This document shows, in pieces, positions 26,248 to 62,393 of a stretch of DNA of 64,000 nt. The DNA is from Phanerodontia chrysosporium (lineage: Eukaryota; Basidiomycota; Agaricomycetes; Polyporales; Phanerochaetaceae). Each line of letters starts with the position of its first letter. The first letter of the stretch is position 1. The position numbers and the translations under genes were made by a program. The stretch is taken from contig MJGA01000006.1 of assembly GCA_001910725.1 (NCBI GenBank), positions 1,240,001 to 1,304,000 on the forward strand, given 5' to 3'. The notes under the pieces are model-generated. The model saw only the letters and a program-made list of their open reading frames with translations. It had not been told where the DNA came from and did no database searches.

Positions 26248-26249
26248 AA

Positions 26250-26787: not shown

Positions 26788-27211
26788 ACGCGGTCACGTG
26801 TTGGTCACGTGTTGGGAATGGACTCAGAGTCATGTGAGGATCTTATCTTTATCTTATCTATGATGTAGACGCTCCGGTACAAGGGTATAGTAGGTAGCCA
26901 GACCCAGGGTCCGGGTAGTGTATTCTAGAATAGCGTAGAAGGTTCCGGACACATCCGGTACTCAGCTTTAGACTTCGCCGAGCCCGGAGTGTCTTGGCAA
27001 GTATCGCACCATCATCACGCCATCGCGCATGTGATGGGCAGTATCAAGGGTCTCGGGTAGTACCAGGGGTCCTCCCCTTCATGTATATATACCGGGCTCT
27101 GCTGGGCTTAAGTCCCCAGCATCATCTATCTCGTCTACCACCACTTCACTCTCGCAGTCAAGTCTCACCCCACCAAAGCTACTAAGGTAAGTAGCGGGGT
27201 TTACTTTGACA
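26788..27211 (+). repeat. 5' LTR of element F, right fragment
   Basis: It resumes LTR A after element B and contains a TATATATA box at 27084-27091. A strong splice donor, AAG/GTAAGT, is at 27187. The LTR ends CTTTGACA at 27211, the same end as the inverted solo copy at 58386. Confidence 0.85.
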
Positions 27212-28061
27212 TTTAGATGATGCTATACCCCTTCGCGTCGACGTCGGCCTTAAGGGCTTGATCGTCGTGCGCAGCGTGCTCGACGTCGTTGCCGGCGACG
27301 TCGGCACCTTTACTACTCATAATCTTGCGTTCGCAGGTTTGTTTCTTCGATGCGCGACTACCACCTGTAATAGGGGTAGTTATCATTCGTGGGGCTGGCG
27401 ACTGAGGTCCACCTGTAAAAGGGGGCTGTACGTCGTCGGCCATGGGGTCGCATGGGCATTACTCGTCGAATTATCGCGAGTGATGTTTGTGTTGGCGGGT
27501 TCGCAGCGCACTTCGACCTGTAATAGGCGATGCTGTGCTCGGCCTGTCCGGAGACCTAAACGACTTGGGATCTGGGGGATACGTTGGGCCACCTGACAAG
27601 GGGCTTGACATGTTGAGACCCACCGTTGGACACGTGGCGCCAGGAGTGCGACCATGTGGGCGGGCTGTGCAATACAGCATGGGAATCTTCTTGCCGATCC
27701 ACAGGCGTAAGTGGCCACGCGACGCGTGGGGTGTTGAGTCCACCGCAAGGTGGCCGCATCCCCAGTACTGGATGACAAGCGGTAAGACGCTAGCATCTAG
27801 GAAGTCCATGGAGATCGTAGCTGTAAGGCACGACAAACCATTTGCAGCGGGTGTGGAAACCCGACTGAGATCTGAAACTCCCCCATCGCGCATGTGCAGA
27901 GAGATAATGGCATGCCATAAACGACTCTACCCACGAATGCGCGCGCATCAAGATTCGAACCGCAGCAAGAGAGGGCTGGTAACCCTCATTTTCTGAGCAC
28001 TTTTCCTTTCCATAAGTCGTACCTGTAAAAGGACGATGGTTGATTATGTTATCACACAGAA
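27212..28061 (+). promoter_or_regulatory. Leader of element F, probably largely an intron
   Basis: It lies between LTR A and ORF0. The donor at 27187 and an acceptor CACAG at about 28060, directly before AAATGAAG, would remove about 870 bases and put the ORF0 ATG first in the message. Inside are four copies of ACCTGTAAWAGG (27362, 27411, 27516, 28021), a CCACC-GCAA-GGTGG hairpin (27740-27753), and a 26 bp stretch at 27692-27717 shared with the leader of element E. No primer-binding site is obvious. Confidence 0.5.
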
Positions 28062-28774
28062 ATGAAGTTCTACAACAAGACCATCATTGCCCACAACGCC
28101 GCCGCCCCCTACCCCTCCCTTGCCGAACGCATCTTGCTTCGCAAGGAGACCCAAGAAAAAGTCTACGAGGAGGTCAAGGAGAAGCTGACCGAGATCGAGC
28201 GCCCCAAACAGTGCGAGAAGTATCTCCTCCAGCGCGAGCGTAACCGTCGCACCGTCACCCGCCCCGTTCCGAAGGCCAAGCAGGATCGCATCAACGAGGA
28301 GTTCGAGGAACGCCTCTGGGCGCTCGAACAGGCCTCCAGGCTCATCATGGAGATGAAGGCGCGCAAGCGTCTCGAGGACCGGATTTCGAATCCGGCTCCC
28401 TCACTCCTGAGTCGCCTGGGCCCCCCTCAGCACCTGTCTCAAGAAGAGGTCGAGGAGACATACGGGAACGACGGCGACATGCAAGGCAAGGTCCCGAAAG
28501 AAGCAGGTCGTATGCAGAAGTCGCACATCATCGATCGAACCAAAGAGATGATGAACTTGTTCAACGCGGTAAACCTTCGTTTGGTACCGCTCAGCGACCA
28601 CCTCATCGACATCGACAAGGTCAACAAGGAGCTAGGCGATGAGGTCTCGAAGTTGCTCGTCGACTTCGAAGACTTATACGACCACTTCGACGAGAACAAG
28701 GGGAGAAAGAAGTTGAAGGGAAAGCATTACAGGTGGATTACGAGGGATTTAAAGAAAATAAAATATGTATCCTT

Positions 28775-29306
28775 TGTCAAGGTGCGGGTCGGAGGTGGGC
28801 CGGAGAACGGAGAACGGGGCGGAGAAAGGGTCGGAGAAGGGCGGAGGTCGGAGGTCGGATGGCAGTCGGCTTCAGCCTTAAAGGGCTGCGCCCTCGGCGG
28901 TCTGCGTTGCCTGGATTTCGGAGTCGGAGGTACGGAGAAGTGGCGGGGTTCGGGCCCACACAGAGATTGCGAGAAAGGATTAAGCAGAGTCGAGAAGGTA
29001 CAGGGGGGACCTAAGTCGATATCCGAACTGAGGATACAAGTGCTAGCGCGGGAGCTTATATACTACTGAGTCCGGAGTTCGTGGAGATGGTCGGAGATGT
29101 ACAAAACATATCATACTTCCAATCTGGGATTTGTCTCAGGAACGAAGGGGTAAAGGTTTTGCGAGATGATGAAGGCATGTGGTGAAGATAAGACCTTAGC
29201 AACCAACCGGAGTCGCAACTCCGAATGTCCGTGCTACCCCGTAGCTTCCCTCGAACTCCGGCGTTCTCCATGACCGGAGTTAGCTCGGAATTTCAGCGCC
29301 ATGACA
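28775..29306 (-). repeat. 3' LTR of element C
   Basis: 532 bp, TGTCAAGG to CATGACA on the plus strand. No difference from 36031-36562 was found by eye. Confidence 0.93.
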
Positions 29307-36720: not shown

Positions 36721-37414
36721 TGTCACGGATGTGACGGTGCTGCCCTATTTTTCGCCGATTTTTGGCTATTTTCCTCGATTAATCCAACGGGCGAGCAGCC
36801 CTCGCGCCGTCTGGAGTCCTAGCCGCCCACACTCAGCGCCTGGCCACTCAGCGCCAGCGCCCTGATGGCGCATCACCCCTAGACGCCAGCGCATCCCGCT
36901 GCGCGCTCAGACACTGCCCGGATCACCGGTCTGCCTTGCAACCGGTTCCCCGGATCGCCGAGGAGGCGCTGTCATCCCTAATGACTCCCCTCGCCGAGAC
37001 ACGCCGAGCTGATCAGCCTGATGACACAGCCTCGGCCCGACGCAGCCTCGAGACACTGCCAGCTGACACAGCCTCGTGACATAGCCCCAGCACAGCCGCG
37101 CCGCGCAGCCCGCGTCGCAGCCTCGCTGGCTATGCTGAGCGCTGCCCATCAGCTTATGTAATCGTATAGCCTGCCCTAAAGGACCTGTAGTATATAAGGG
37201 TAGCTCCCCTCGCTCCTGTCCGTCATCTCAACCTCTTGGTCAATACGGACAGGTAAGCCCAGTTTGTATTGTAGTTACAGTGCTAATATTATCTTGGTCA
37301 ATACGGACAGCTGAGCAAGTTTGTTCGTCGCTGCGTGATTCGCTCCGCCGCGCCTCGTCGTCGACCTCCCCACTTGCCCTCCCTCGTGAAGCGTTGAGCC
37401 CTAGCTCCGCGACA
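36721..37414 (+). repeat. Solo LTR of family G in the leader of element F
   Basis: 694 bp, TGTCACGG to GCGACA, with CTTTC on both sides (36716-36720 and 37415-37419). It shows the same 17 bp direct repeat pair as the full-length G LTRs (37236-37252 and 37294-37310), but the sequence between the repeats is diverged. It is the remnant of LTR-LTR recombination. Confidence 0.88.
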
Positions 37415-37472
37415 CTTTCCAACTGTAAAAGTGGAAAGAATTTGTACTAACATACCTTTTGACTAAGAAACA

Positions 37473-39595: not shown

Positions 39596-40195
39596 TATCA
39601 CAAAAATGCGCTGCCCTAGCGCCTATACACCAAACCAACCAGCAATACTCACTGGCAAAGGTTTACTTGGACTACAAAGGGTGTAGCCAGGCTTGAAGAC
39701 GAGGTATAGAGGCTAGAGAGGTGAGATGCGATGAGATTGAAGCTGGGGAGGCACCCCCAGCCCTCAGGGTTTATATACATGTGCACCAGGTCCCCAGGGA
39801 CCGGTGTTCAGGGTCTTAGCTATCTAATACCTACTACGCTATTGGCTAGTGCCCTACAGGCATTCCTACATTCTCCTACACGTTCCTAAATGTTCCTACG
39901 ATGTCCCAGAAACCTCCAGAACGTTCCAGCACTGTCCGGACCTGTCCAGAGACCTCCAGGGCTTTCTAGTCCATTCCGGAGTGTCTCGGCGCTTCCAGAC
40001 CCTTGCCTGCTTCTAGACCTTCGACCATGTGACCCTGGGATACCGCACGTGTGCGCATCACGTGACCGCCGTATCACGTGACCAGCCCCGAGCCTAGGGC
40101 TGTCACTCCAGCGCTTCTGCATGTCACAGTTCGGAGTAATCGCTTCTGTCACCTGCTGCCCCTAACCCTAAGGGTTAAGACGAAAAACTGTGACA
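39596..40195 (-). repeat. Solo LTR of family E, inverted, in pol of element F
   Basis: 600 bp, TATCAC to GTGACA on the plus strand, flanked by CAGAG on both sides (39591-39595 and 40196-40200). Confidence 0.9.
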
Positions 40196-41676
40196 CAGAG
40201 CTTGAACCAGAGCAACCTTGGGAATTCTCACTGGACGATATTGGAGAAGTGGATATTCCCCACTACATCAACTGGGTTGATTTCAGTAACCCAGAGGAAC
40301 GAACGCAAGCCGAGGCTGTCGCTGACATCCTGGAAAAGGATGACGACGATACGGTTGACACCTCGCAATGGAAATCACAGATACCGAGTTGGGTCCACAA
40401 ATTCGAAAGCGTATTCAGTAAGACCAAGTCTGAACGCATGCCCACCCACAAACCATGGGATCATGCCATCGAATTTGAGGAAGGAGCAAAATTGCCCCCA
40501 ATCGGAAAGGTGTACCCACTAGACCAGAGACAACGCTCGTCTTTCGACGAGTGGATTCGTGAGGAACGCCGAAAAGGCTACATTGAAGAGTCGAAGTCAC
40601 CCATCGCTGCATCATTCTTTTTCGTAAAGAAGGCCGATGGCAGTTTGCGACCTTGCATGGATTACCGCCCCTTGAACGGAATTACAAAGAAAAACCGTTA
40701 TCCTATCCCTCGGATCGCCGACCTAATCGACGCACTGTCTCAGGCGTCGATATTCACAAAAATCGACCTTCGATGGGGATATAACAATATCCGCATCAAG
40801 GAAGGTGACAAGTGGAAAACGGCTTTTGTAACCAAGGACGGTTTATTCCAGGCCAAAGTTATGTACTTTGGATTCGCAAACGCACCAGCAACATTTCAGA
40901 ATATGATGAACAACATTTTCGAAGACCTTATCCGTCAAGGAAAGGTTATGGTCTACCTCGACGATATCCTCATCTTTGGCAACGACCGCGAGGAACATCG
41001 AAAGATCGTACACGAAGTGTTGCAGCGACTGGAAGACAACGACCTCTTCGCAAAGGCAGAAAAGTGTCTATTCGAGAAGGACAAGCTCGCCTATCTCGGC
41101 ATGATTATATCTAAGAATCATGTAGAAATGGACCCTGCTAAAGTCACAGGCGTAACGGAGTGGCCCGTACCAACCAAGGTCAAGCACGTTCAGGCATTCC
41201 TTGGATTCGCGAATTTCTATCACAGGTTTATTAAAGACTTTGCGAAGATCACGAAGCCACTCACGGTACTCACCAAGAAGGATCAACCATGGGAATGGGG
41301 TCCCGACCAGCAGAAGGCGTTTGATGACCTGAAAAAGGCGTTCACTTCTGCACCAATTCTACGAATTCCGGATGACGTTAATCCGTTCAGGCTCTCTACC
41401 GACGCGAGTGACTTCGCGATCGGCTCGGTTTTGTCACAACTCGACCCAAACGATAAGCTTTACCATCCGGTAGCCTTCCACTCCAAGTCACTCAATGTTC
41501 ACGAAAAGAACTATGAGATATACGACAAGGAGATGTTGGCCATAATCCGTGGGTTAGAAGAGTATAGGCACTATCTAGAGGGACACCCGGAGAAATTCGA
41601 GATATGGTCAGACCACCAGAACCTGACTTATTTCAAGCAGGCCCAGAAATTGTCTCGCCGTCAAGCTCGTTGGGCA

Positions 41677-42277
41677 TGTCACAGTTTTTCGTCTCAACCC
41701 TTAGGGTTAGGGGCAGCAAGTGACAGAAGCGATTACTCCGAACTGTGACATGCAAAAGCGCTGGAGTGACAGCCCTAGGCTCGGGGCTGGTCACGTGATA
41801 CGGCGGTCACGTGATGCGCACACGTGCGGTATCCCAGGGTCACATGGTCGAAGGTCTAGAAGCAGGCAAGGGTCTGGAAGCGCCGAGACATTCCGGAATG
41901 GACTAGAAAGTCCTGGAGGTCTCTGGACAGGTCCGGACAGTGCTAGAACGTTCTGGAGGTTTCTGGGACATCGTAGGAACATTTAGGAACGTGTAGGAGA
42001 ATGTAGGAATGCCTGTAGGGCACTAGCCAATAGCGTAGTAGGTATTAGATAGCTAGGACCCTGAACACCGGTCCCTGGGGACCTGGTACACATGTATATA
42101 AACCCTGAGGGCTGGGGGTGCCTCCCCAGCTTCAATCTCATCGCATCTCACCTCTCTAGCCTCTATACCTCGTCTTCAAGCTTGGCTACACCTTTTGTAG
42201 TCCAAGTAAAACCTTTGCCAGTGAGTATTGCTGGTTGGTTTAGTGTATAGGCGCTAGGGCAGCGCATTTTTGTGATA
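41677..42277 (+). repeat. 5' LTR of element E1
   Basis: It carries TATATAAA at 42095-42102 and a splice donor, CCA/GTGAGT, at 42221. Its first ten bases (TGTCACAGTT) recur inverted at 41741-41750, forming a potential hairpin at the extreme U3 end. Confidence 0.92.
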
Positions 42278-42586
42278 GAAGATTGAAGCTAGCCAACCTA
42301 CTCCACCTTTGGTGGCCTAGGTTATTGCTTTGGGTTCTGGGGGCTTGTTTGAACAAGTGCTTTCGCGCTTTGTTCAGTTTTCTGCCAATCCACAGGCGCA
42401 AGTGGGCACTATAGTACCTTTTTAGGTACAGACAGGGGAACGTGGTGTAACCCACCTCAGAGGGCTTTGCCTGCGGACGAGTAACCCCTGTTGTAGTGCT
42501 GGACTAAGGGTGTAATACCCTGTCCAACCAGTTTTAGCTGCGTGGCGTGGAAACCCGCAGTAATACCCCTTTCTCTTCGTTGAGGG
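42278..42586 (+). promoter_or_regulatory. Structured, ATG-free leader of element E1
   Basis: Serial perfect stem-loops: CCACC-TTT-GGTGG (42303-42315); a 10 bp GAACAAGTGC...GCGCTTTGTTC stem (42351-42375); GTACCT-TTTT-AGGTAC (42414-42429); GGAC...GGGT-GTAAT-ACCC...GTCC (42501-42525); CTGCG...CGCAG (42538-42560). In E2 the last stem reads CTGTG...CACAG, a compensatory change, and the tetraloop of the second differs only in the loop. A CCAC-AGGCGCAA-GTGG motif is shared with element F. It is probably an RNA element for packaging or translation. Confidence 0.65.
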
Positions 42587-43399
42587 TTGGCTGGCAGGAA
42601 AGCCTTGCGCTTTGCCTGTGTGGAGAAGTTTTCTGGCTTGTGTACACAGGCTGACCCGTGTTTACTAGTGCCTAAAGCTGCTAGGAACCGTTTTGTCCTT
42701 GCTAAGGACGAGAGCTCTGGCAAACCCTTGCTTGAGCGCATCAAGATCTCAAACCTTCACCGCTTCAAAGACGTTGGGAAGCCGCGCCCTGCGTACAAAC
42801 CTCGCACTACACCCTACACCCCTGTCCCTGGTCGTCGTGAAAGGCTTGCTCGTGAAGCAGACTTGAACGACTTCAAGCACCAGCTTCAGCTCGAAGACTA
42901 TCGCAACGAACAGCGCAAGCGCCGCCTACTCGATCGCATCGCGAACGCCCCTCCCCCTCTACCCCTCATCGAACGTATTGAACCTCCCCCTACTCCCCCT
43001 ATCGAAGTCAAACCCATTCCCAAGGACCTTCGCTTTCACACCAACACTCAGGTCCATCAGCTGCGCGACTACGGACGAAAGTTCAACGGCGCCCTTAACC
43101 ACTTGGGTCCGTTCTTTCAGAAGCTAGACGAGCAGCGTTTTCGAGTTGGGTTGACTGAACACGAGCTCTACACCTTGGGCTTGTTCAAGGAGAGGTTCGA
43201 TAACATTCGCAAACACCTTCAGACCATCGTCGAGACGAAGGAGTACACCACGAGGGAGTGGAAGAAGATTTCGAGGGATTTGAAGAAGGCAGGCGCACAT
43301 AGCTTTGCTGAGCTTAAGCCACGCTTCGCTGAGCATTGCAGGGAGCTGATTCAGGAGTTGGGTGAAGATTGGTTGTTTTTGGAGAAGAACCTCGATTAG
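42587..43399 (+). CDS. ORF0 of element E1 (pre-gag ORF without any methionine)
   Basis: Open from just after the TGA at 42581 to the TAG at 43397. The TTG at 42587 has G at -3 and +4 and is the first near-cognate codon, but the start is not known. There are 270 codons with no ATG in this or the other two frames. The product is basic and helical: KPLLERIKI, a LEDYRNEQRKRRLLDRIANAPP segment, a Pro-rich hinge, FNGALNHLGPFFQKLDE, then REWKKISRDLKKAGAHSF. The E2 copy differs by an in-frame 9 bp deletion and mostly synonymous changes. It is related to ORF0 of F and G. Gag starts 29 bp after its stop. Confidence 0.65.
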   Translation: MAGRKALRFACVEKFSGLCTQADPCLLVPKAARNRFVLAKDESSGKPLLERIKISNLHRFKDVGKPRPAYKPRTTPYTPVPGRRERLAREADLNDFKHQLQLEDYRNEQRKRRLLDRIANAPPPLPLIERIEPPPTPPIEVKPIPKDLRFHTNTQVHQLRDYGRKFNGALNHLGPFFQKLDEQRFRVGLTEHELYTLGLFKERFDNIRKHLQTIVETKEYTTREWKKISRDLKKAGAHSFAELKPRFAEHCRELIQELGEDWLFLEKNLD

Positions 43400-43428
43400 T
43401 TTTTGTATCTGCGCATTTTTGAATCAAG

Positions 43429-45009
43429 ATGTCGCTCAATTCAAACCCTGTTGACTTTGGTTTGCGTTCTGCTGCGAGTTCAAGTGGTATGGACCCTTGG
43501 GGAGCGTTAGAACTCGGCTCTATGGCTGAGGGAGGCCCTACCCCAGTTTTGGCTGCTGCGCCGCTTTCGACCTCTTACGAAGAGTACAGCCAGTCATGGG
43601 TACAAGCCGCTCAGGAAGGACTGACTCCTGGCGACTTCAAGGCCCTCGTTGACAGCCTGGGTAACTGGGTAAAGGCTGAGATAGCTCAAGTAAGGTCGGA
43701 AATGGGTTCAGAAGTCCTTCGCTTGAAGGAAGCCCTTCGCAAACGCAAAACCGAGGCCAAGACACTTCAGGAGCAGATAGACACCCTTGAGCAGACTAGA
43801 CAGCACTTGTCTGCGCAGATAGCAGAGGCTCAGAACCAAAATCGCGTTTTGCAGAACGCTATGCAGATGCTGAAGCAGGAGAACGAGAGCTTGAAAGTGT
43901 TGGTTCAGCAAGGCACTAGTGGAGGCAACGTTGGGTTGTCTCAGTCTTTGTTCCCTACCATGAAGGAGCCTGACACCTTTAATGGTGATAAGGCTAGTAA
44001 GCTGGATGACTGGCTCGAGTCGATGGCACTCTGGTTGCGCCACCGTGGCGTAATGGACGACGAAAAGAAGATAGAGACGGCGATGACTTACCTGCGAGGT
44101 TCAGCAAAGAAGGTCATGCAAGAGTACTTCGACAAGGTGGCAGACTCAAAGCCCCTTGGTACTTGGACCAACTTTGTGAACGAACTCCAGAAAGGATTCC
44201 AACAGACCGACAAGAAGGACAGGGCAAGGGCAGAGTTTGAGCAGCTTGTCAGCAAGAAAGGAACGAACGAGAAGACTTTCAATGAGTTTGCTGCTCGTTT
44301 CCGTTCGCTGGCTCGCCAAACTGACTTCTCCAACGAGGAACTGTTGGTCAAAGCCTATGCCCATACCCCTCGTGCCGCTGCCGATGTACTGGCAGCCCGT
44401 GGTCGTGCTCAGTGGGCTACGACCTGGGACAGTTGGTTGAAGGATGTTCAGGAGATTCTGCAGGATCAACGTCTCTTGACGGGCACCGTACTCTCTGGAC
44501 AGCCTCAGTCGTCGAAAGACCCTGACGCTATGGATGTCGACGCCTTGAAGAAGGGCTCAGCCCAGGGCAAAGGCAAGACAGCCAAAGTTCAGAAGGTTGC
44601 CATGTCGTTCGAGGAGGCGAAGAAGAAAGGCTGCTGCGCTCAGTGTGGAGGCAAAGGCCACATCGCCAAGGAGTGTCCATCGAAGAAGAACAACTCAGGT
44701 TCTTCGACGTCGTCGAGTAAAACCACCAATGCACCGGTGGCCAGTTCGTCAAAGGCTTCGCCTTCAAAGGGAAAGGAGAAGGATAAGGGCTCTCGCCACA
44801 CGAAGAGCAGTGCGCGCGAGGTGTACGCCAGCGACTCGGAGAGATTCCAGGAGGTAGCCTCTGACGAGGAATCGAGCTCAGATAGCTCAGAAGAAGAAGA
44901 TACCCCCAAGACCAAGCAAAAGAAGAAGTCGTCTTCGAAGGAGAAGGCGCAGAAGATTAACCGCGTGGTATTCTCAGATGATGAGGATTTTCTGCAGGGA
45001 CCGATGTAG
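43429..45009 (+). CDS. Gag of element E1
   Basis: The ATG at 43429 (A at -3) is the first ATG after the TATA box. 526 aa: a long coiled coil (about residues 85-165, rich in LEQTRQHLSAQIAEAQNQN-type heptads), a Gag core (EPDTFNGDKASKLDDWLESM, AMTYLRGSAKKVMQEYF, FNEFAARFRSLARQ), DAMDVDALKKG, a zinc knuckle CAQCGGKGHIAKEC (C-x2-C-x4-H-x4-C), then an acidic Ser/Glu tail. The slippery heptamer G GAT TTT is at 44985-44991. Confidence 0.9.
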   Translation: MSLNSNPVDFGLRSAASSSGMDPWGALELGSMAEGGPTPVLAAAPLSTSYEEYSQSWVQAAQEGLTPGDFKALVDSLGNWVKAEIAQVRSEMGSEVLRLKEALRKRKTEAKTLQEQIDTLEQTRQHLSAQIAEAQNQNRVLQNAMQMLKQENESLKVLVQQGTSGGNVGLSQSLFPTMKEPDTFNGDKASKLDDWLESMALWLRHRGVMDDEKKIETAMTYLRGSAKKVMQEYFDKVADSKPLGTWTNFVNELQKGFQQTDKKDRARAEFEQLVSKKGTNEKTFNEFAARFRSLARQTDFSNEELLVKAYAHTPRAAADVLAARGRAQWATTWDSWLKDVQEILQDQRLLTGTVLSGQPQSSKDPDAMDVDALKKGSAQGKGKTAKVQKVAMSFEEAKKKGCCAQCGGKGHIAKECPSKKNNSGSSTSSSKTTNAPVASSSKASPSKGKEKDKGSRHTKSSAREVYASDSERFQEVASDEESSSDSSEEEDTPKTKQKKKSSSKEKAQKINRVVFSDDEDFLQGPM

Positions 45010-48000
45010 AGTCTGCGACATCTGGTCCGTTTTTAGATTTCCTTTACCCTCCCGACTCAGTAGAATGTATTAAATCAGTTTTGGAATCGAGAAAAGTCTC
45101 TAGTTTGCCCTCTAAATCGAGCTTTATCGTTCCAGTAACTTTGAGTCAGGGTAAGGAAATCAGAGTGCAGACTACCGCGCTGGTTGATTCAGGGGCCTAT
45201 GCCGTGTTCATTAGCCATCGCTTCGTCAAGAAGCATAAGCTGAAGACGAACCAGCTGGCCAGGGAGATACGCGTTTACAACGCGGATGGCTCCAGGAACA
45301 AGTGTGGCAGTATTGAGGAGTACGCTTGGCTCGACGTAGCCGTAGGGGACCATATCTCCAGACAAGCATGCCTTATTACAGATCTGGGTGGAAAGGACAT
45401 GTTCCTCGGCTTTAGCTACCTGAAGAAGCATAATCCTGAGATAGATTGGGATAAGGGCGAGTGGAAGTACTCCAGATGCCCAGATTCTTGTCGCTTTACC
45501 AGCCACAAGGCTCAAGTAGCACAAGCAGAGCTCGAAGAACCTATGGACGAGGACTTCGAGGAGGAAGAAGAGGAGCCTTGGCTCCAGTGGGTCGACCCTT
45601 CCACCCCAGATGGCCGCGTTTTGGCATTAACTTGCCGGAAGATCGCAGCGATGTGCAGTATTCGTTCGCTGGAGGGAATCGAGGACTGGGAGCAGCTTGT
45701 CCCTGCACAGTATCAAGACTATGGGGACGTGTTTTCGAAGCGTGCAAGCGAACGGTTACCCGTACAAAAGCCTTACGACCACGCTGTCGAGTTTATCGAC
45801 GGAGCTACCCTACCTCGACCAGCTCGTAATTACTCGCTGTCGCCAGAAGAGAGGAATTCTCTGGACGAGTGGATTCAGGAGAATCTCGCCAAGGGATACA
45901 TCAGACCGAGTAAATCCCCGCTGGCAGCACTAGTCTTTTTCGTGAAGAAGAAGGACGGTTCATTGCGCTTGGTGCAAGACTACAGGAAGCTGAACGAAGT
46001 CGTCAAGAAAGACCGCTTCCCTATACCCAAGATCTCAGACCTTATAGATCGACTATCTAAGGCCAGTATATACACCAAGATTGACCTTAGATGGGGGTAT
46101 AACAACGTCAGAATCAAGGAAGGAGACGAGTGGAAGCTGGCCTTCATCACACCTTTCGGTTTATACGAACCTACAGTGATGTTCTTCGGCCTCAGCAATG
46201 CACCAGCAACCTTTCAGCGCATGATGAACCATATTCTCGATGATCTGATTCGAGAAGGGCATGTCATGGTCTACCTAGACGACATCCTCATCTTCACGAA
46301 TGACTTGGACCACCATCGGCGATTAGTTCGCGAGGTATTGCAGCGGCTACGCGACAATGACCTGTTCGCTAAGCCAGAAAAATGCTTCTTCGAGACGGAT
46401 AGCATTGAATACCTCGGAATGATCATCAGCAAGGGGTCGGTTCAGATGGATCCATCGAAGGTAGATGGCGTTTTATCTTGGCCCATACCCAAAAGGGTCA
46501 AAGATGTCCAGGCTTTCCTGGGTTTTGCTAACTTCTACCGACGGTTTATTCGAGACTTTGGCAAGATTGTTCGCCCATTGTCAGAGCTTACCCGCAAAGG
46601 TAAAGAGTGGGAATGGGGGCCTGAGCAGCAGGATGCCTTTGATACGCTCAAGAGAGCGTTCACCACTGCGCCTATTCTCAAGATTCCGGACGACGAGCAC
46701 CCTTTTAGGCTCGAATGCGATTCGTCAGACTTTGCTACGGGGGCTGTACTTGAGCAACTGGGCGAGGATGGCCTTTGGCACCCTGTCGCGTTTTACTCCA
46801 AGGCGCTAGGCGTACATGAGCGCAACTACGAGATATACGACAAGGAGATGCTAGCCATCATCCGCGCATTGAAGGAATGGCGCCACCACTTGGAGGGACA
46901 CCCTCTACCATTTGAAATATGGTCAGATCACCAGAATTTGACCTATTTCCGCAAGGCACAAGACTTGACGCGACGTCAAGCACGTTGGAGCCTTTTCCTC
47001 ACACGTTTCCACTTCAAGTTGGAGCACAAGCCTGGAAAGACGATGAAGCGGGCTGATCCAATGTCCAGGAGGCCAGATCATGAATTGGGGGTGGATTGCG
47101 ACAATCGTGAAAAAGTCCTTTTGAAGCCAGAATATTTCGCGATTCGAGCCATGCAACCAACCCATTCATCGATAGTGGACGATAGCAAACTGCTAGAAAG
47201 GATCAGAAAAGCCCTGCTGGACGACGAAGTCACCAAGTCGTACAAAGACCTGATGTTGAAAGGACCAAGAGAGTTCGGGAAGGACTTAGCAGAATGGCAC
47301 CTCGAGGACGGGCTACTACTGCACCGAGGCAAGGTGTATGTGCCCAAGGACGACAAGATTAGGGCGGATCTACTCAAGTTACACCACGACTTCCCTGGGG
47401 CTGGACACCCTGGACGATGGAAGACGTTGGAGTTGCTGTCGCGCAACTACTGGTGGCCAGGAATGTCAGTTTACGTCAAGAAGTACGTCGCAGGCTGCGA
47501 AGTCTGCCAGTCGCATAAAAACGTCAACCAGAAGCCTGCTGGCCTGCTACAACCGAACGAGGTTCCGTCGGAACCCTGGGAGATAATCTCATGTGACATG
47601 ATCACGGACTTGCCTGAGTCGGACGGTTACAACGCTATCTTCGTAGTCGTTTGCCGCTTAACCAAGCGAGCACATTTCCTCCCCATCACCAAGGAGTTTT
47701 CAGCCAAGGATCTGGGAAATTTGCTCTATGAGCGTGTTTGGCCTTTGCACGGCCTACCCAGACAGATCATTTCGGATAGGGGAACGCAGTTCGCCGCAAA
47801 ACTCTTCCAGGAATGGTGCAGACTCTTGGGGATCAAGTCAGCAATGACTACAGCGTTTCATCCTCAGGCGGACGGTCAGACGGAGCGAGTTAATCAGTCA
47901 TTGGAGCAGTATCTGCGCTGCTACACAAGCTTCAGGCAGGACGACTGGGCGTACCTTTTGCCCTCTGCCGAGTTTGCGTACAATAACCAGGCGCATGAAA

Positions 48001-49142
48001 GCACCAAGAACTCGCCATTCTTCGTCGAATATGGCCGTCATCCACGCATGTTCCCAGAGCAGGACCGTGTTACAAGGTTGTCAGAACTGGACGACTGGAC
48101 GAAGCTTAGACAGGAGGCCCAAGATCAGGCAAAAGCCGCGCTCGTGCTGGCTGCAGAGCGAATGAAGTGGTACTACGACCAGGGTAAATCAGAACCCTTG
48201 TTCAAGGTCGGAGACCGTGTTTGGCTTGACGCAAAGGATCTGAACCTTCGGGTTCCCTCCAAGAAACTGGCACCAAAGCGAGTAGGCCCTTACGAGATCG
48301 TAGAGCAGCTGGGACCGGTCACCTTCAAGCTGAAGTTACCAGCCCATGTGAAGATTCACCCGGTCTTCCACGCAAGCAAGCTCACGAAGCACGTCGAGGA
48401 TGAGGTTGCCAATCGCACGCGCAAACCCCTACCACCCATTCGTGTGGGTGATGACGAGGAGTACGAGGTCGAGCAGATCGTAGATGCACAGCCAGACTCT
48501 AAAGGCCGTGTTATGTACCGAGTACGGTGGAGAGGATACGATGAGCATAGCGACACATGGGAATACTTGCCCAATCTCAAGCACGCTATGGCGAAGGTCA
48601 AACAATTCCACAAGAAATACCCAGATGCGCCAAAGGCAATTTCCTTTCTGCAACGCCACCACGACGAGGAGGATGAGTTTTTCGTGCGCGAACTCGCGCT
48701 ACTCCAATCTTGGGGAGCAGACGACCAGTTCGAGGTCGAGCTCATGAACAAGGACGCAAAACTCCCCTCACGTGGCTCGCCAGAAAGCGCAGGGTTGGAT
48801 CTTTTCATCACGGAAGACCTTACGCTCAAGCCCCATGATCGCAAGCTAGCGTCAACTGGCCTTCGAATGTGTACTCCACCAGGTACCTACGCTCGAGTCG
48901 CACCACGGAGTGGCCTCAGCCTCAGAGGCATCGACATAGGAACAGGCGTTATTGACCGAGATTATCGAGGAGAGCTCAAAATTCTACTCATCAACAACTC
49001 GCCCGACACCTTTACATTCCACAAGGGTGATCGTGTCGCTCAACTCGTGCTCGAAATAATCTCCTACGCCGAACCAACTCCGGTTTCTCGCCTCGACTCA
49101 ACCATTCGCAGCAGCGATGGTTTTGGCTCCACTGGTATTTAG
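44985..49142 (+). CDS. Pol of element E1 (protease-RT-RNase H-integrase-chromodomain-dUTPase)
   Basis: The -1 frame opens exactly at the heptamer at 44985 (preceding stop 44982). Protease ALVDSGAYAVFI. RT: VKKKDGSLRLVQDYRKLN and YLDDILIFT. RNase H: RLECDSSDFATGAVL. Integrase: HHCC finger (HHDF...CEVCQ), SCDMITD, SDRGTQFAAKLF and HPQADGQTERVNQ. A GPYEIVEQLG module, then chromodomain EEYEVEQIVDAQ...YRVRWRGYDEHSDTWEYL, then all five dUTPase motifs: SAGLDLF, PRSGLSLRG, GVIDRDYRG, GDRVAQLVLE and SSDGFGSTG. About 1385 aa from the heptamer, intact. The dUTPase presumably limits uracil in the element's cDNA. Confidence 0.92.
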   Translation, partial: GFSAGTDVESATSGPFLDFLYPPDSVECIKSVLESRKVSSLPSKSSFIVPVTLSQGKEIRVQTTALVDSGAYAVFISHRFVKKHKLKTNQLAREIRVYNADGSRNKCGSIEEYAWLDVAVGDHISRQACLITDLGGKDMFLGFSYLKKHNPEIDWDKGEWKYSRCPDSCRFTSHKAQVAQAELEEPMDEDFEEEEEEPWLQWVDPSTPDGRVLALTCRKIAAMCSIRSLEGIEDWEQLVPAQYQDYGDVFSKRASERLPVQKPYDHAVEFIDGATLPRPARNYSLSPEERNSLDEWIQENLAKGYIRPSKSPLAALVFFVKKKDGSLRLVQDYRKLNEVVKKDRFPIPKISDLIDRLSKASIYTKIDLRWGYNNVRIKEGDEWKLAFITPFGLYEPTVMFFGLSNAPATFQRMMNHILDDLIREGHVMVYLDDILIFTNDLDHHRRLVREVLQRLRDNDLFAKPEKCFFETDSIEYLGMIISKGSVQMDPSKVDGVLSWPIPKRVKDVQAFLGFANFYRRFIRDFGKIVRPLSELTRKGKEWEWGPEQQDAFDTLKRAFTTAPILKIPDDEHPFRLECDSSDFATGAVLEQLGEDGLWHPVAFYSKALGVHERNYEIYDKEMLAIIRALKEWRHHLEGHPLPFEIWSDHQNLTYFRKAQDLTRRQARWSLFLTRFHFKLEHKPGKTMKRADPMSRRPDHELGVDCDNREKVLLKPEYFAIRAMQPTHSSIVDDSKLLERIRKALLDDEVTKSYKDLMLKGPREFGKDLAEWHLEDGLLLHRGKVYVPKDDKIRADLLKLHHDFPGAGHPGRWKTLELLSRNYWWPGMSVYVKKYVAGCEVCQSHKNVNQKPAGLLQPNEVPSEPWEIISCDMITDLPESDGYNAIFVVVCRLTKRAHFLPITKEFSAKDLGNLLYERVWPLHGLPRQIISDRGTQFAAKLFQEWCRLLGIKSAMTTAFHPQADGQTERVNQSLEQYLRCYTSFRQDDWAYLLPSAEFAYNNQAHESTKNSPFFVEYGRHPRMFPEQDRVTRLSELDDWTKLRQEAQDQAKAALVLAAERMKWYYDQGKSEPLFKVGDRVWLDAKDLNLRVPSKKLAPKRVGPYEIVEQLGPVTFKLKLPAHVKIHPVFHASKLTKHVEDEVANRTRKPLPPIRVGDDEEYEVEQIVDAQPDSKGRVMYRVRWRGYDEHSDTWEYLPNLKHAMAKVKQFHKKYPDAPKAISFLQRHHDEEDEFFVRELALLQSWGADDQFEVELMNKDAKLPSRGSPESAGLDLFITEDLTLKPHDRKLASTGLRMCTPPGTYARVAPRSGLSLRGIDIGTGVIDRDYRGELKILLINNSPDTFTFHKGDRVAQLVLEIISYAEPTPVSRLDSTIRSSDGFGSTGI

Positions 49143-49177: not shown

Positions 49178-49778
49178 TGTCACAGTTTTTCGTCTCAACC
49201 CTTAGGGTTAGGGGCAGCAAGTGACAGAAGCGATTACTCCGAACTGTGACATGCAAAAGCGCTGGAGTGACAGCCCTAGGCTCGGGGCTGGTCACGTGAT
49301 ACGGCGGTCACGTGATGCGCACACGTGCGGTATCCCAGGGTCACATGGTCGAAGGTCTAGAAGCAGGCAAGGGTCTGGAAGCGCCGAGACATTCCGGAAT
49401 GGACTAGAAAGTCCTGGAGGTCTCTGGACAGGTCCGGACAGTGCTAGAACGTTCTGGAGGTTTCTGGGACATCGTAGGAACATTTAGGAACGTGTAGGAG
49501 AATGTAGGAATGCCTGTAGGGCACTAGCCAATAGCGTAGTAGGTATTAGATAGCTAGGACCCTGAACACCGGTCCCTGGGGACCTGGTACACATGTATAT
49601 AAACCCTGAGGGCTGGGGGTGCCTCCCCAGCTTCAATCTCATCGCATCTCACCTCTCTAGCCTCTATACCTCGTCTTCAAGCTTGGCTACACCTTTTGTA
49701 GTCCAAGTAAAACCTTTGCCAGTGAGTATTGCTGGTTGGTTTAGTGTATAGGCGCTAGGGCAGCGCATTTTTGTGATA
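49178..49778 (+). repeat. 3' LTR of element E1
   Basis: 601 bp, no difference from the 5' LTR by eye. It is followed by the GGGCA target copy. Confidence 0.92.
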
Positions 49779-49886
49779 GGGCACTATACCTAACAAGATT
49801 CCATTTCACACTACACCACAAGCCGGGTAAAAGCATGGAAGCTGAAGACCTTCTGTCCAGGAGACCAGATCATGAAGAGGGGGTAG

Positions 49887-50578
49887 TGTCACGGATGTGA
49901 CGGTGCTGCCCTATTTTTCGCCGATTTTTGGCTGTTTTCCTCGATTAATCCAACGGGCGAGCAGCCCTCGCGCCGTCTGGAGTCCTAGCCGCCCACACCC
50001 AGCGCCTGGCCATTCAGCGCCAGCACCCTGATGGCGCATCACCCCTAGACGCCAGCGCATTCCGCTGCGCGCTCAGACACTGCCCGGATCACCGGTCTGC
50101 CTTGCAACCGGTTCCCTGGATCGCCGAGGAGGCACTGTCATCCCTGATGACTCCCCTCACCGAGACACGCCGAGCTGATCAGCCTGATGACACAGCCTCG
50201 GCCCGACGCAGCCTCGAGACACTGCCAGCTGACACAGCCTCGTGACATAGCCCCCGCACAGCCTCGCCGCGCAGTCCGCGTCGCAGCCCCGCTGGCTATG
50301 CCAAGCACTGCCCATCAGCTTAGGTAATCGTACAGCCTGCCCTAGAGTACTGTAGTATATAAGGGTAGCTCCCCTCGCTCCTGTCCGTCATCTCGACCTC
50401 TTGGTCAATACGGACAGGTAAGCCTCCGTGTGTAGTATTTACTATTTCAATGTTAACTTGGTCAATACGGACAGCTGCGTAAGTTTGTTCGTCGCCGCGT
50501 GACCCGCTCCGCTGCGCCTCGTCGTCGACCTCCCCATTCGCCCTCCCTCGTGCAGCGTTGAGCCTTTGCTCCGCGACA
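49887..50578 (+). repeat. 5' LTR of element G
   Basis: TATATAAG at 50356-50363. The 17 bp direct repeat TTGGTCAATACGGACAG lies at 50401-50417 and 50458-50474. The first copy ends in a splice donor (CAG/GTAAGC) and the second in an acceptor-like CAG, framing a likely 57-base intron (50418-50474) that contains the LTR's only ATG downstream of the TATA box (50449). Confidence 0.9.
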
Positions 50579-50709
50579 TTAGGTCGAGATCTTTTGGGTG
50601 CCCTAGGCATTTTTCCCTACCGCTCCCCCCAAACCCCATTTAAAAAAGTTTATTCCCACTGATTAAAGCGAGTACGTCGTAGTCGAGCAGCCCGCTCACT
50701 CCGTACACG

Positions 50710-51420
50710 TTGCTGAGGCTTGCATTTGCAGTGCCGAAAGACGTCCAGCTCAAGGACCACATCCCCCAATGCATCTTCAACCGCCTCCAACGTCGTCGCG
50801 AGGCCGGTAACCCCGTCAAGTGGACGGACCGCAAAGTCAAGGCGGTCGTCAAGTACGTGTCCACACTCCCCCAGCCTCCGCCCTCCGTCCCCTCCATCAA
50901 CTGGACTGCCGTCCACGAGGCTCGTGAGGCCGAACAACGCGTAGGCAACCGTATCCGCGAGCAGCGCCAGCGAGAGGCGCAAGAAGCCCAGGCCGCCGTA
51001 GCCGCCTCCTCCTCGAAGCTCAGTTTGGTAGAGCGCCTCAGCGCCGCCCCGACGTACGAGCCCATCGCCCGCAAGCCCATCGGCATCGACATCCCCAAGT
51101 ACTCCCCCACTGACCTCGTCGGCATCTTCACGCCCAAACTCGACGCAACCATCAAGCGTCTCAAGGCCGTCGAGGAAGTCGACCTCTTCCACCTCGTAAA
51201 CAGCGACCACGCACGCGGCGTCTGCCAGCTGATCGAGCGCCTCCAGCAGATCCGCGCCGAGCTCGTCCGCCTCGCCCCAACCACCACGTTTAAGGAGTGG
51301 CACCAATACAAGCTAGGTCTCGCTCAGATTGGTGACATTTCGTTTGTCGGTTTAAGGCACAACTTTCGCCGCATCGTGGGAGAACTAGATATTGTGTATC
51401 GGGCTGGATATTTTGAGTAG
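50710..51420 (+). CDS. ORF0 of element G (pre-gag ORF without methionine)
   Basis: The frame is open from 50683 (after the TAG at 50680) to the TAG at 51418, with no in-frame ATG; near-cognate ACG, TTG, CTG and GTG codons lie at the start. About 236 residues: DHIPQCIFNRLQRRREAG, a Gln/Arg/Glu-rich helix, LVERLSAAPTYEPI (compare DRIANAPP in E), then EWHQYKLGLAQIGDISFVGL matching the C-terminal module of E and F. A 14-codon out-of-frame ATG ORF sits at 50769. Function unknown. Confidence 0.6.
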   Translation: MLRLAFAVPKDVQLKDHIPQCIFNRLQRRREAGNPVKWTDRKVKAVVKYVSTLPQPPPSVPSINWTAVHEAREAEQRVGNRIREQRQREAQEAQAAVAASSSKLSLVERLSAAPTYEPIARKPIGIDIPKYSPTDLVGIFTPKLDATIKRLKAVEEVDLFHLVNSDHARGVCQLIERLQQIRAELVRLAPTTTFKEWHQYKLGLAQIGDISFVGLRHNFRRIVGELDIVYRAGYFE

Positions 51421-53096
51421 TCTATAAAAATACATCTCGTGTCGCTCTGGATTCCGACTGCTCGAATCGACCGCACTTCTTTGCGCGAAATCTCGAGGAT
51501 CATACAGTTCGCGATAGCCACCTCATCGATCGAGGGGAAGATTGGCAATTCGCTCTCTGTGACGAACAACCCTGTCCACATCGAGAAAGCGCTCCAGCAG
51601 CCCCACAACTCCCGCCGAACACTCGAGAAATCCAATTTGAGCGCCCTCGTTTCGCGCAGCGGCTAGAATTTGCTCACGCTTCTGCCACTACTCTGAATAC
51701 TCCCGACCGCAGTCCCCCGGACAGCAGCCACCACTCGTCTCCCGAGACATCGCTCGGCTCCGTCCTCTCCGACCACGAACCCACTCCCTCGCCGTTTAAT
51801 CTCTCCCGCGCTCAATCAGGAGCCAACACTCCCCGTCCCCCCAATATGTCGAGCACTCCCGGTGGAGCGCCTCCTGGCCCGGCTCCCCCCGACCCCATCT
51901 CTGCTACCCTCCTGCAAATGGCCCAGGCGATGACGCAGCTTACAAACACGGTTAACACTCTGGCTCAGACTATTGGCGCCAATCGGACAACGGTCAACGC
52001 AACGGTCAATGCCAACAAAGAGCTCCCCTTCGTCGAAAAGCCCATGCCGTTCAAAGGAAAGGGTTCAGACACGGCCCGACTCTTCCGCGCCGCCTATCGC
52101 ATCTACGCCGACGGACAGCCGGAGAAATTCGGCAAGCGCGACGTCAATGGTAACCTCGAGCGGGACGCAAACACCGGCAAGATCTTGGTAGACGGCCAGA
52201 AGTGGATCGTCGGCGCTCTCTCCTTCATGCAGGATGAAGCGGCGGAATGGGCACGGCAGTACATCGAACAGGCAGCAGACGGCACTCAGATATTTGACGG
52301 CTCTCGCGCTACGTTCTGGGAGGCTTTCAAGAACCGGTTCGAGCCCATGGACGAGAAGGCCGAGGCTCTCAGCAAGCTGCAGGCATGTACGCAAGGCAAC
52401 CGCCGGTTCGCGGAGTTCTTTGCGGAGTTCCAAGCCCTCGCCGGCCGTACGAAGCTCACCCCGGAAGACCTGGCAGCCCGGCTACGGTCGAAGTTTAATA
52501 AGGACTACCTCGAGCGGATCTCGTACATGGTCAACCCCGCTACCGGCAAAGGCCCCGAGACGTACAACGAGCTCAAGAACGCGGGTTTCGCTGTCGACCG
52601 GTCGAAGGACAAGCTCTCGCAAGACCTCCTGGCACAGCAAGGCAAGACGTCCTCGACTCCGGCTAGCTCGTCAGCGCGCGCCTTCCGCGACCCGAACGCG
52701 ATGGACATTGACGCCGCGAACATTGACGAGCTGTTTAAGGGTCTCACTGGCACGGATCTCAAGCGCCAGTTCGACGCCGTCATGAAGGACCGCTGCAAGG
52801 TCTGCGGCTCGAAGTCCCACAAGTCCACGGACCCCGTTCACCGTGATTCGGTCTGCAACCACTGCGGCAAGAAAGGTCACTGGTCCCGCGTCTGTCGTGC
52901 CCGCCTCGAGGGCAAGCCAAAAACCGCCCCTGCTACCGCCGCCGTCCGCGCCTCGTCTTCGGATACCTCGTCACAGGACTCCTCGTCTCCGGCCTCCTCG
53001 TCTTCTGGCAGCTCGTCTGACGACCAAGCTGCCGCGCTCGCCGCCCTCCGTGATCAGCTGGTCCTGATACAGAAGCAGCTCGGGGGTTTTGCTTAA
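51417..53096 (+). CDS. Gag of element G, open upstream of its first ATG
   Basis: The first ATG is at 51846 (416 aa from there), but the frame is open without ATG from 51417, just after a TGA at 51414 and overlapping the ORF0 stop. The extra 143 codons read like protein, e.g. a Ser/Pro-rich HASATTLNTPDRSPPDSSHH stretch. Core: ELPFVEKPMPFKGKGSDTAR, AAEWARQYIEQ, FWEAFKNRFEP. The zinc-knuckle region has CKVCGSKSH and CNHCGKKGHWSRVC. A Ser-rich tail follows. The heptamer G GGT TTT at 53084-53090 ends it. Confidence 0.8.
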   Translation, partial: VVYKNTSRVALDSDCSNRPHFFARNLEDHTVRDSHLIDRGEDWQFALCDEQPCPHRESAPAAPQLPPNTREIQFERPRFAQRLEFAHASATTLNTPDRSPPDSSHHSSPETSLGSVLSDHEPTPSPFNLSRAQSGANTPRPPNMSSTPGGAPPGPAPPDPISATLLQMAQAMTQLTNTVNTLAQTIGANRTTVNATVNANKELPFVEKPMPFKGKGSDTARLFRAAYRIYADGQPEKFGKRDVNGNLERDANTGKILVDGQKWIVGALSFMQDEAAEWARQYIEQAADGTQIFDGSRATFWEAFKNRFEPMDEKAEALSKLQACTQGNRRFAEFFAEFQALAGRTKLTPEDLAARLRSKFNKDYLERISYMVNPATGKGPETYNELKNAGFAVDRSKDKLSQDLLAQQGKTSSTPASSSARAFRDPNAMDIDAANIDELFKGLTGTDLKRQFDAVMKDRCKVCGSKSHKSTDPVHRDSVCNHCGKKGHWSRVCRARLEGKPKTAPATAAVRASSSDTSSQDSSSPASSSSGSSSDDQAAALAALRDQLVLIQKQLGGFA

Positions 53097-60651: not shown

Positions 60652-61251
60652 TGTCACAGTTTTTCGTCTTAACCCTTAGGGTTAGGGGCAGCAGGTGACA
60701 GAAGCGATTATTCCGAACTGTGACATGCAGAAGCGCTGGAGTGACAGCCCTAGGCTCGGGGCTGGTCACGTGATACGGCGGTCACGTGATGCGCACACGT
60801 GCGGTATCCCAGGGTCACATGGTCGAAGGTCTAGAAGCAGGCAAGGGTCTGGAAGCGCCGAGACACTCCGGAATGGACTAGAAAGTCCTGGAGGTCTCTG
60901 GACAGGTCCGGACAGTGCTGGAACGTTCTGGAGGTTTCTGGGACATCGTAGGAACATTTAGGAACGTGTAGGAGAATGTAGGAATGCCTGTAGGGCACTA
61001 GCCAATAGCGTAGTAGGTATTAGATAGCTAGGACCCTGAACACCGGTCCCTGGGGACCTGGTACACATGTATATAAACCCTGAGGGCTGGGGGTGCCTCC
61101 CCAGCTTCAATCTCATCGCATCTCACCTCTCTAGCCTCTATACCTCGTCTTCAAGCCTGGCTACACCCTTTGTAGTCCAAGTAAACCTTTGCCAGTGAGT
61201 ATTGCTGGTTGGTTTGGTGTATAGGCGCTAGGGCAGCGCATTTTTGTGATA
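60652..61251 (+). repeat. 5' LTR of element E2
   Basis: 600 bp, TATATAAA at 61070-61077, donor GTGAGT at 61195. A few differences from the E1 LTR. Confidence 0.9.
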
Positions 61252-61560
61252 GAAGATTGAAGCTAGCCAACCTACTCCACCTTTGGTGGCCTAGGTTATT
61301 GCTTTGGGTTCTGGGGGCTTGTTTGAACAAGTGCTTTTGCGCTTTGTTCAGTTTTCTGCCGATCCACAGGCGCAAGTGGGCACTATAGTACCTTTTTAGG
61401 TACAGACAGGGGAACGTGGTGTAACCCACCTCAGAGGGCTTTGCCTGCGGACGAGTAACCCCTGTTGTAGTGCTGGACTAAGGGTGTAATACCCTGTCCA
61501 ACCAGTTTTAGCTGTGTGGCGTGGAAACCCACAGTAATACCCCTTTCTCTTCGTTGAGGG
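61252..61560 (+). promoter_or_regulatory. Structured leader of element E2
   Basis: It has the same stem-loops as E1. The CTGTG/CACAG stem (61512-61516 and 61530-61534) replaces CTGCG/CGCAG. No ATG occurs between the TATA box and the gag start. Confidence 0.6.
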
Positions 61561-62364
61561 TTGGCTGGCAGGAAAGCCTTGCGCTTTGCCTGTGTGGAGA
61601 AGTTTTCTGGCTTGTGTACACAGGCTGACCCGTGTTTACTAGTGCCTAAAGCTGCTAGGAACCGTTTTGTCCTTGCTAAGGACGAGAGCTCTGGCAAACC
61701 CTTGCTTGAGCGCATCAAGATCTCGAACCTTCACCGCTTCAAAGACGTTGGGAAGCCACGCCCTGCGTACAAACCTCGCACTACACCCTACACCCCTGTC
61801 CCTGGTCGTCGTGAAAGGCTTGCTCGTGAAGCAGACTTGAACGACTTCAAGCACCAGCTTCAGCTCGAAGACTATCGCAACGAACAGCGCAAGCGCCGCC
61901 TACTCGATCGCATCGCGAACGCCCCTCCCCCTCTCCCCCTCATCGAGCGTATTGAACCTCCCCCTATCGAAGTCAAACCCATTCCCAAGGACCTTCGCTT
62001 TCACACCAACACTCAGGTTCATCAGCTGCGCGACTACGGACGAAAGTTCAACGGCGCCCTTAACCACTTGGGTCCGTTCTTTCAGAAGCTAGACGAGCAG
62101 CGTTTTCGAGTTGGGTTGACTGAACACGAGCTCTACATCTTGGGCTTGTTCAAGGAGAGGTTCGATAACATTCGCAAACACCTTCAGACCATCGTCGAGA
62201 CGAAGGAGTACACCACGAGGGAGTGGAAGAAGATTTCGAGGGATTTGAAGAAGGCAGGCGCACATAGCTTTGCTGAGCTTAAGCCACGCTTCGCTGAGCA
62301 TTGCAGGGAGCTGATTCAGGAGTTGGGTGAAGATTGGTTGTTTTTGGAGAAGAACCTCGATTAG
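61561..62364 (+). CDS. ORF0 of element E2
   Basis: 267 codons, again with no methionine. Compared with E1 it lacks three residues of the Pro-rich hinge (a 9 bp in-frame deletion) and has one obvious replacement (Thr to Ile after ELY). Several other changes are synonymous, as expected for a translated sequence. Confidence 0.65.
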   Translation: MAGRKALRFACVEKFSGLCTQADPCLLVPKAARNRFVLAKDESSGKPLLERIKISNLHRFKDVGKPRPAYKPRTTPYTPVPGRRERLAREADLNDFKHQLQLEDYRNEQRKRRLLDRIANAPPPLPLIERIEPPPIEVKPIPKDLRFHTNTQVHQLRDYGRKFNGALNHLGPFFQKLDEQRFRVGLTEHELYILGLFKERFDNIRKHLQTIVETKEYTTREWKKISRDLKKAGAHSFAELKPRFAEHCRELIQELGEDWLFLEKNLD

Positions 62365-62393
62365 TTTTTGTATCTGCGCATTTTTGAATCAAG

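Follow-up and report, generated by a model that had tools for sequence, protein, structure and literature searches.

ORF0, an open reading frame ahead of gag in two retrotransposon families of Phanerodontia chrysosporium, is a real gene. It is probably an accessory gene, carried by Ty3/gypsy elements of the self-priming, chromodomain type, with a start codon that is built at the junction of a spliced RNA. Both families, here called E and F, are present in the window, i.e., the 64,000-nucleotide stretch of contig MJGA01000006.1 that was analysed. Splicing would choose which protein is made, ORF0 from the spliced RNA and gag, by scanning, from the unspliced RNA.

Family E and its ATG-free leader

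The window contains two copies of family E, E1 and E2, with the following features:

41677..42278, + strand: 5' LTR of E1, identical to the 3' LTR at 602 of 602 positions; TSD GGGCA
42095..42102, + strand: TATA box of E1, from the sequence
42128..42220, + strand: predicted exon 1 of E1, from the inferred transcript start to the 5' splice site; no ATG
42221..42668, + strand: candidate intron of E1, predicted, 448 nt, GTGAGT...CTGAC (42651-42655)...TTTACTAG; spans the primer-binding site
42280..42290, + strand: primer-binding site of E1, AGATTGAAGCT, complementary to the RNA 5' end (42128-42138), as for self-priming
42669..43399, + strand: ORF0-E, with the TG of the predicted split AUG (42669-42670), codons 2-243 (42671-43396) and the stop codon TAG; no internal Met
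43429..45009, + strand: gag-E, 526 aa, Retrotrans_gag and CCHC; its start codon is the first AUG in unspliced RNA
44985..49142, + strand: pol-E, comprising protease, RT, RNase H, integrase and chromodomain, with a dUTPase at the C-terminus; read in the -1 frame with respect to gag
49178..49779, + strand: 3' LTR of E1, identical to the 5' LTR
60652..61252, + strand: 5' LTR of E2, 98.3% identical to that of E1
61195..61642, + strand: candidate intron of E2, with the same splice signals as in E1
61643..62364, + strand: ORF0-E2, with the TG of the predicted split AUG, 239 codons and a stop codon; the gag ATG of E2 is at 62394

The Pfam domains of pol-E are arranged in the order protease, RT, RNase H, integrase and chromodomain, as in a Ty3/gypsy chromovirus. 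The Chromo match scores 45.1 bits (cut-off 25.1), and is followed by a dUTPase at 48753-49136 (128.2 bits, residues 1257-1384 of 1385). In gag-E, Retrotrans_gag scores 34.3 bits (cut-off 24.1), while zf-CCHC scores 16.9 bits, under its cut-off of 20.8, at a plain CCHC motif. Frameshifting is likely, since pol-E overlaps the end of gag in the -1 frame. With respect to priming, both E and F look like self-priming elements, with the primer-binding site 1-2 nt past the LTR end (1 in E, 2 in F) and a predicted RNA start 33-34 nt past the start of the TATA box. The complementarity between the RNA 5' end and the primer-binding site in both families allows the probable transcript start to be placed from the sequence, and in E1 the 11-nt match begins 33 nt downstream of the first base of the TATA box and puts it at about 42128. 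The final base of exon 1 is an A, which would be the A of the split start codon.

A direct scan of E1 confirms the claim of an earlier note on this DNA that no ATG occurs in any frame from the TATA box (42095) to the start codon of gag (43429). The flanking ATGs are located at 42092, where the ATG overlaps the TATA box, and at 43429, and no ATG-free stretch on the + strand of the window is longer than the 1337 nt between them. The second longest (61067-62394, 1327 nt) belongs to E2, and the third (50769-51846, 1077 nt), absent from the earlier note, to family F. The expectation of about 20 ATGs given in that note is correct as a mononucleotide figure (19.3), but not when dinucleotide content is kept, where 10.1 are expected in the E1 zone (sd 2.6; minimum 2 in 2000 shuffles) against the zero observed. 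E2 repeats the pattern, with no ATG against 10.7 by dinucleotide shuffle. The methionine-free frame, previously given as 270 codons, extends from stop to stop over 271 codons (42584-43396) and is devoid of ATG. Random recoding of ORF0-E with synonymous codons produced a mean of 3.6 ATGs, and zero ATG in 1% of trials.

Family members with frequent ATGs in the zone, which the earlier note had named as evidence against its reading, are found among decayed E copies only. The survey comprised 59 rows, equal to 54 distinct places, drawn from the 126 genome matches of ORF0-E. Among the 43 places sharing 97.5% or more identity with E1, 41 are without an ATG in the zone and two have one; 11 more decayed copies have 2 to 22 ATGs, and in the copy with 22 the zone measures 2,021 nt and carries an inserted F LTR. 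In young E copies, unique ATG-creating changes are not depleted (6 against 6.4 expected; 44 copies with <3.5% substitutions), which fits neutral change after insertion and lends selection no support. This 44-copy set was counted differently from the 54-place survey; it includes the decayed copies L072 and L076, and excludes five rows that repeat a place as well as L013, the sequence of which equals that of another copy.

Conservation of ORF0 and depletion of AUGs

The copy of family F in the window has the following features:

49887..50578, + strand: 5' LTR of F, 99.9% identical to the 3' LTR at 56888-57579
50581..50590, + strand: primer-binding site of F, AGGTCGAGAT, complementary over 10 nt to the RNA 5' end (50390-50399)
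50672..50731, + strand: candidate intron of F, 60 nt, GTACGT...CTGAG...GCAG, preceded by A; the signals occur at all 30 F loci examined
50732..51420, + strand: ORF0-F, with the TG of the predicted split AUG, codons 2-229 (50734-51417) and a stop codon; no internal Met
51846..53096, + strand: gag-F, 416 aa

ORF0-F is homologous to ORF0-E, and also sits ahead of gag. The two proteins are 27% identical over 131 aa by BLASTP (E 1e-5), align with a Smith-Waterman z of 9.6, and are matched by profile comparison with 57% probability (E 1e-4). In the host genome (39.0 Mb, 145 contigs), ORF0-E has 126 matches, 61 of which span residues 1-243 without a stop, and ORF0-F has at least 152, with 150 of 222 candidates scored; the frame is open in all 30 F loci fetched. 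Neutral evolution of ORF0, which the earlier note had named as evidence against its own reading, is not observed. ORF0-F is under purifying selection, with a dN/dS of 0.078 across the 30 loci (gag-F: 0.072, partial, in 21 of those loci). The other two frames of ORF0-F give values of 2.6 and 3.3, and its variable columns are distributed as 13, 10 and 96 over codon positions 1, 2 and 3. In young copies of ORF0-E, nonsynonymous changes fall short of expectation: 32 unique changes are nonsynonymous (42.6 expected) and 36 are synonymous (24.3 expected).

In F, the stretch between the ORF0 start and gag is under selection against AUGs. The copy in the window has a single ATG in this stretch, out of frame in ORF0-F at 50769, against 6.6 in shuffles, and only 2 of the 30 copies, which are separated by 452 variant alleles, carry one. 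We simulated the copies jointly by re-placing the observed alleles randomly, each within its class of base and codon position (500 runs with each of three references). About 24-26 of the 29 copies apart from the reference were then expected to have an ATG, and 0 of 500 runs were as low as observed. A single-reference test gives a weaker result, with 7 ATG-creating changes against 13.7 expected over the whole stretch (P 0.04), divided into 1 against 8.0 in ORF0 and 6 against 5.2 in the spacer; it is weaker still when singletons are dropped, and avoidance at synonymous changes only in ORF0-F is not significant (1 against 4.0, P 0.09). The weakness of this test arises because neighbouring substitutions destroy most such ATGs in the copies, where two remain, an effect that the joint simulation takes into account.

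The proposal in the earlier note that ribosomes must reach the gag AUG undisturbed is supported by the two ATGs found where about 24-26 of 29 copies were simulated to have one, and the AUG-free leader fits selection for unhindered scanning. Leader and ORF0 would be kept free of AUG in all frames, wholly in E and from the ORF0 start to gag in F, so that scanning ribosomes could reach gag; in unspliced E RNA, the gag AUG would be the first that they meet. The genomic leader of F is not wholly AUG-free, since U5 contains an ATG at 14 of the 30 loci, located about 280-310 nt upstream of the ORF0 start and opening uORFs of 4-89 codons. From transcript start to gag, 15 of 30 F loci have no ATG. The F LTR has, at 50400-50475, a variable segment bounded on either side by the direct repeat CTTGGTCAATACGGACAG. 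GTAAGC, CAG and often CTAAT occur in this segment, which resembles a second candidate intron within U5. The U5 ATG of the 14 loci lies in or near this segment, and could be removed with it if the segment (GTAAGC...CAG) is a further intron.

The proposed split start codon and its rivals

Because E lacks an ATG from the transcript start to gag, any AUG for ORF0 that comes from the element's own RNA must be assembled by splicing. The E signals read GCCA/GTGAGT...CTGAC...CTAG/TGCCTAAAG, where slashes denote splice sites. The leader has two GTRNGY sites, both preceded by A, namely GTGAGT at 42221, which is its one strong fungal 5' splice site and lies within the LTR, and the weaker GTGGGC at 42402. 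At the 3' side, CTGAC is followed by TTTACTAG, which directly abuts TG CCT AAA, with the last intron base at 42668. The predicted junction, ...TTTGCC-ATG-CCT-AAA, is in frame and holds the sole AUG in the 822 nt that the spliced leader and ORF0 make up together. In an RNA that starts at about 42128, joining A/GTGAGT at 42221 to CTAG/TG would yield GCC-AUG-CCU-AAA and a protein of 243 residues; without splicing, the A and the UG would stay apart and ORF0 would lack an AUG. Splicing would also excise the primer-binding site, making the spliced RNA unable to serve as genome.

A corresponding arrangement is predicted for F, where removal of the 60-nt intron would join A/GTACGT...CAG/TG into the AUG of ORF0-F, as in E. 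The signals GCGA/GTACGT...CTRAR...CAG/TGCC and the branch-like motif GCTRARG are both present in 30 of 30 loci examined, the intron length is constant at 59-61 nt despite a varying stretch between branch motif and AG, and the predicted junction reads ATG CCN AAA in frame at every one of the 30 loci. Met-Pro-Lys would thus be the start of ORF0 in E and F alike. In 13 of the 30 loci, only five sense codons separate an in-frame stop from codon 1, which places the start at or next to the splice site. Conservation of the 5' splice site is by itself weak evidence, since its neighbourhood is conserved too. Such a splice geometry arose in fractions of 0.0023 (E) and 0.0007 (F) of shuffled leaders (dinucleotide shuffles, 3000 trials), values that serve as guides and not as probabilities because the pattern was set after the sites had been seen. 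The signals and their conservation, like the purifying selection on ORF0-F and the depletion of AUGs, are directly observed; from them we infer splicing, translation from the junction AUG, and access to gag by scanning.

For comparison, a host gene with a Pfam Tubulin match, which from its sequence we take to be alpha-tubulin, has five introns of 53-64 nt, compared with which the 448-nt candidate intron of E is long. The 5' splice sites of these introns are GTACGT (two), GTGCGT (two) and GTTTGT (one), and CTGAC or CTGAG occurs near the 3' end of four of the five. The genome holds no direct trace of splicing in the form of an exact-junction retrocopy, as a search with the E junction pattern returned 10 matches, all with three mismatches (reversed control, 7), and one with the F pattern returned none (reversed control, 1). 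The third result that the earlier note named as evidence against its reading, splicing of ORF0 to an AUG-bearing exon, is realised in part as a prediction, in that a junction AUG is predicted, but exon 1 itself contains no AUG.

Family G offers a tentative third ORF0:

27187..28059, + strand: candidate intron of G, 873 nt, AAG/GTAAGT...CACACAG; all 18 ATGs of the G leader lie inside
28062..28775, + strand: ORF0-G, tentatively homologous, starting at an ATG of its own; interrupted from about 28775 by a nested element

The ATG of ORF0-G follows 2 nt past CACACAG, the candidate 3' splice site ending at 28059. In spliced G RNA, the ORF0-G AUG would come first; this ATG is unsplit, and the genomic leader is not AUG-free. 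The AUG-free leader is a property of E and F, and not of every element with an ORF0. Homology of ORF0-G to ORF0-E is tentative because of mixed scores: Smith-Waterman z is 5.4 to E and 1.4 to F, BLASTP against ORF0-E gives E 0.04, the combined E and F profile matches the G frame with E 1.8, and hhalign returned no match between ORF0-G and ORF0-F. Among 53 genome matches of ORF0-G, 33 span the part that was read without a stop. The G LTR at 26787-27163 is 98.9% identical to 60275-60651. ORF0-G is interrupted by the nested element (repeats 28775-29074 and 36031-36330), and the pieces, including the gag at 37473, were assigned to one G element by position only. Directly before this gag ATG, within 37430-37475, CTAAC...CTAAG could be a 3' splice site and points to a further spliced RNA, for gag.

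The earlier note has ORF0 translated from a near-cognate codon or through internal entry; neither route is favoured, in view of the full intron signals in E and F and the ordinary ATG at which the tentative G homologue starts. Initiation at a near-cognate codon of the unspliced RNA would use the GTG that forms codon 1 in E and F, with gag reached by leaky scanning. GTG is indeed codon 1 in E1 and in 30 of 30 F loci, has a G at -3 in F, and leaky scanning suits an AUG-free leader. However, the AG/TG sequence forces a GTG in unspliced RNA in any case, the base at -3 in E is a C, and the YAG, branch and A/GTRNGT signals, which are jointly rare in shuffles, are left without explanation; this reading is improbable. 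An IRES-like internal entry to ORF0 on the genomic RNA might be considered for the 1.3-kb leader before gag in E, but appears very improbable since ORF0 would still have to start without an AUG, and the splice signals would again be unexplained.

It is also unlikely that gag is expressed from a spliced RNA as well, by joining the leader 5' splice site to a 3' site before the gag ATG, with the AUG-free leader serving some other role. AAG abuts the gag ATG in E, an AG ends 23 nt before it in F, and G has CTAAC...CTAAG in the corresponding position. On the other hand, no CTRAY branch motif could be seen by eye close before the gag start in E, the AUG depletion across the E intron and ORF0 would be without reason, and G, where splicing to gag is plausible, is the family with 18 leader ATGs. 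An origin of the ATG-free zone as a side effect of base composition, or of copies that are young and near-identical, is very unlikely. Most E copies examined are 98-100% alike and amount to nearly one observation, but F is independent and diverged, with only two ATGs despite its 452 variant alleles, the shuffles preserve composition, and ATGs accumulate in decayed E copies; this reading was tested and is disfavoured on these three grounds.

Possible function, related elements and neighbouring repeats

The three ORF0 proteins are basic (pI 9.9, 9.7 and 9.3) and have no strongly hydrophobic span. A Pfam search gave no match over a cut-off, the best hit of a PDB sequence search with the A1 profile had an E of 0.46, and no relatives were found in viral contigs. 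Two AlphaFold models of ORF0 are poor (mean pLDDT 54.0 and 55.7); in both, a long helix (approximately residues 55-91) is followed by a linker and a C-terminal part that is helical, an agreement that is not independent because the underlying alignments share sequences. In ORF0-E and ORF0-F, an arginine-rich helix is followed by L-x-L-[IV]-E-R-[IL], an arrangement reminiscent of that of HIV Rev. Our guess is that ORF0 might be a Rev- or CERV-like regulator that aids unspliced RNA. More specifically, and rather doubtfully, a basic, helical ORF0 with a splice-dependent AUG may promote export or protection of the unspliced genomic RNA, and the need for an AUG-free leader may have stripped the E and F proteins of internal methionines.

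Several features of E and F have counterparts in other elements. Tf1 is not known to carry a gene ahead of gag or to be spliced, and differs in this from E and F. As for self-priming of the Tf1/sushi type, described in a passage of PMC2864245, the predicted RNA 5' end in E and F is complementary to a primer-binding site just past the 5' LTR, over 11 nt in E and 10 nt in F. The same source describes fungal gypsy elements of the PosPlaTy3-4 kind with a dUTPase and an additional, unplaced ORF. PosPlaTy3-4 of Postia placenta and E share a dUTPase at the carboxyl end of Pol (PMC2864245), and the additional ORF is compared with ORF0 by description, as the passage gives no location, start codon or splicing for it (PMC2864245). 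The rice element Retrosat2 resembles E and F in having an extra ORF upstream of gag-pol, also named ORF0 (PMC3485330); the likeness is one of description, and Retrosat2 is a plant element with LTRs of more than 3.2 kb, for which the relevant part of the source describes no splice-made start (PMC3485330). In the section concerned, a survey of fungal LTR elements makes no mention of a gene before gag (PMC3248453).

Spliced RNAs are known from Cer1, a Ty3/gypsy element of C. elegans, where the accessory protein CERV is made from a spliced RNA and the splice sites are kept in the genomic RNA (PMC10309623). CERV and the predicted ORF0 protein would both be accessory products of spliced RNA in a Ty3/gypsy element (PMC10309623). 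However, CERV has peptides in common with GAG and a predicted initiator ATG after the splice acceptor (PMC10309623), whereas ORF0 precedes gag and its AUG would be split. In BARE1, copia and Bagy2, spliced subgenomic RNAs divide the RNA pool between proteins, but splicing there, in the passages at hand, truncates to gag or exposes env and builds no start codon (PMC3735527, PMC7264820). Spliced LTR-element RNAs, an ORF upstream of gag-pol and a dUTPase in fungal gypsy elements are already known, and the splice-built start codon with an AUG-free leader would be new; among the titles and opening lines of abstracts returned by searches of the open-licence literature, none deals with a splice-made start codon in a fungal retrotransposon, which is weak evidence for novelty.

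Retroelements need several proteins as well as a genome from one RNA, and here the switch would be the start codon itself. If this is true, ORF0 output directly reads out splicing, and neither frameshifting nor leaky scanning between ORF0 and gag is needed. Scanning could also act as a selective force on protein composition, as the E and F ORF0 proteins of the window are without internal Met. Genes of this type would escape gene finders that insist on an ATG in the genome, so the arrangement may be more widespread than is known.

The surroundings of these elements are rich in repeats, with nested insertions across 26787-60651. A pol frame at 40078-41748 runs into E1 (TSD GGGCA), and the start of this frame is overlapped by an inverted copy of the E LTR (39596-40195, 98.0% identical to E1). 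A copy of the F LTR (36721-37414, 93.4%), with no adjoining F body, is located just before the gag at 37473, and is perhaps a solo LTR. At 23348-26549, an identical pair of 300-bp repeats, 2.9 kb apart, surrounds a long frame on the minus strand (23678-25993), and is perhaps a short LTR element.
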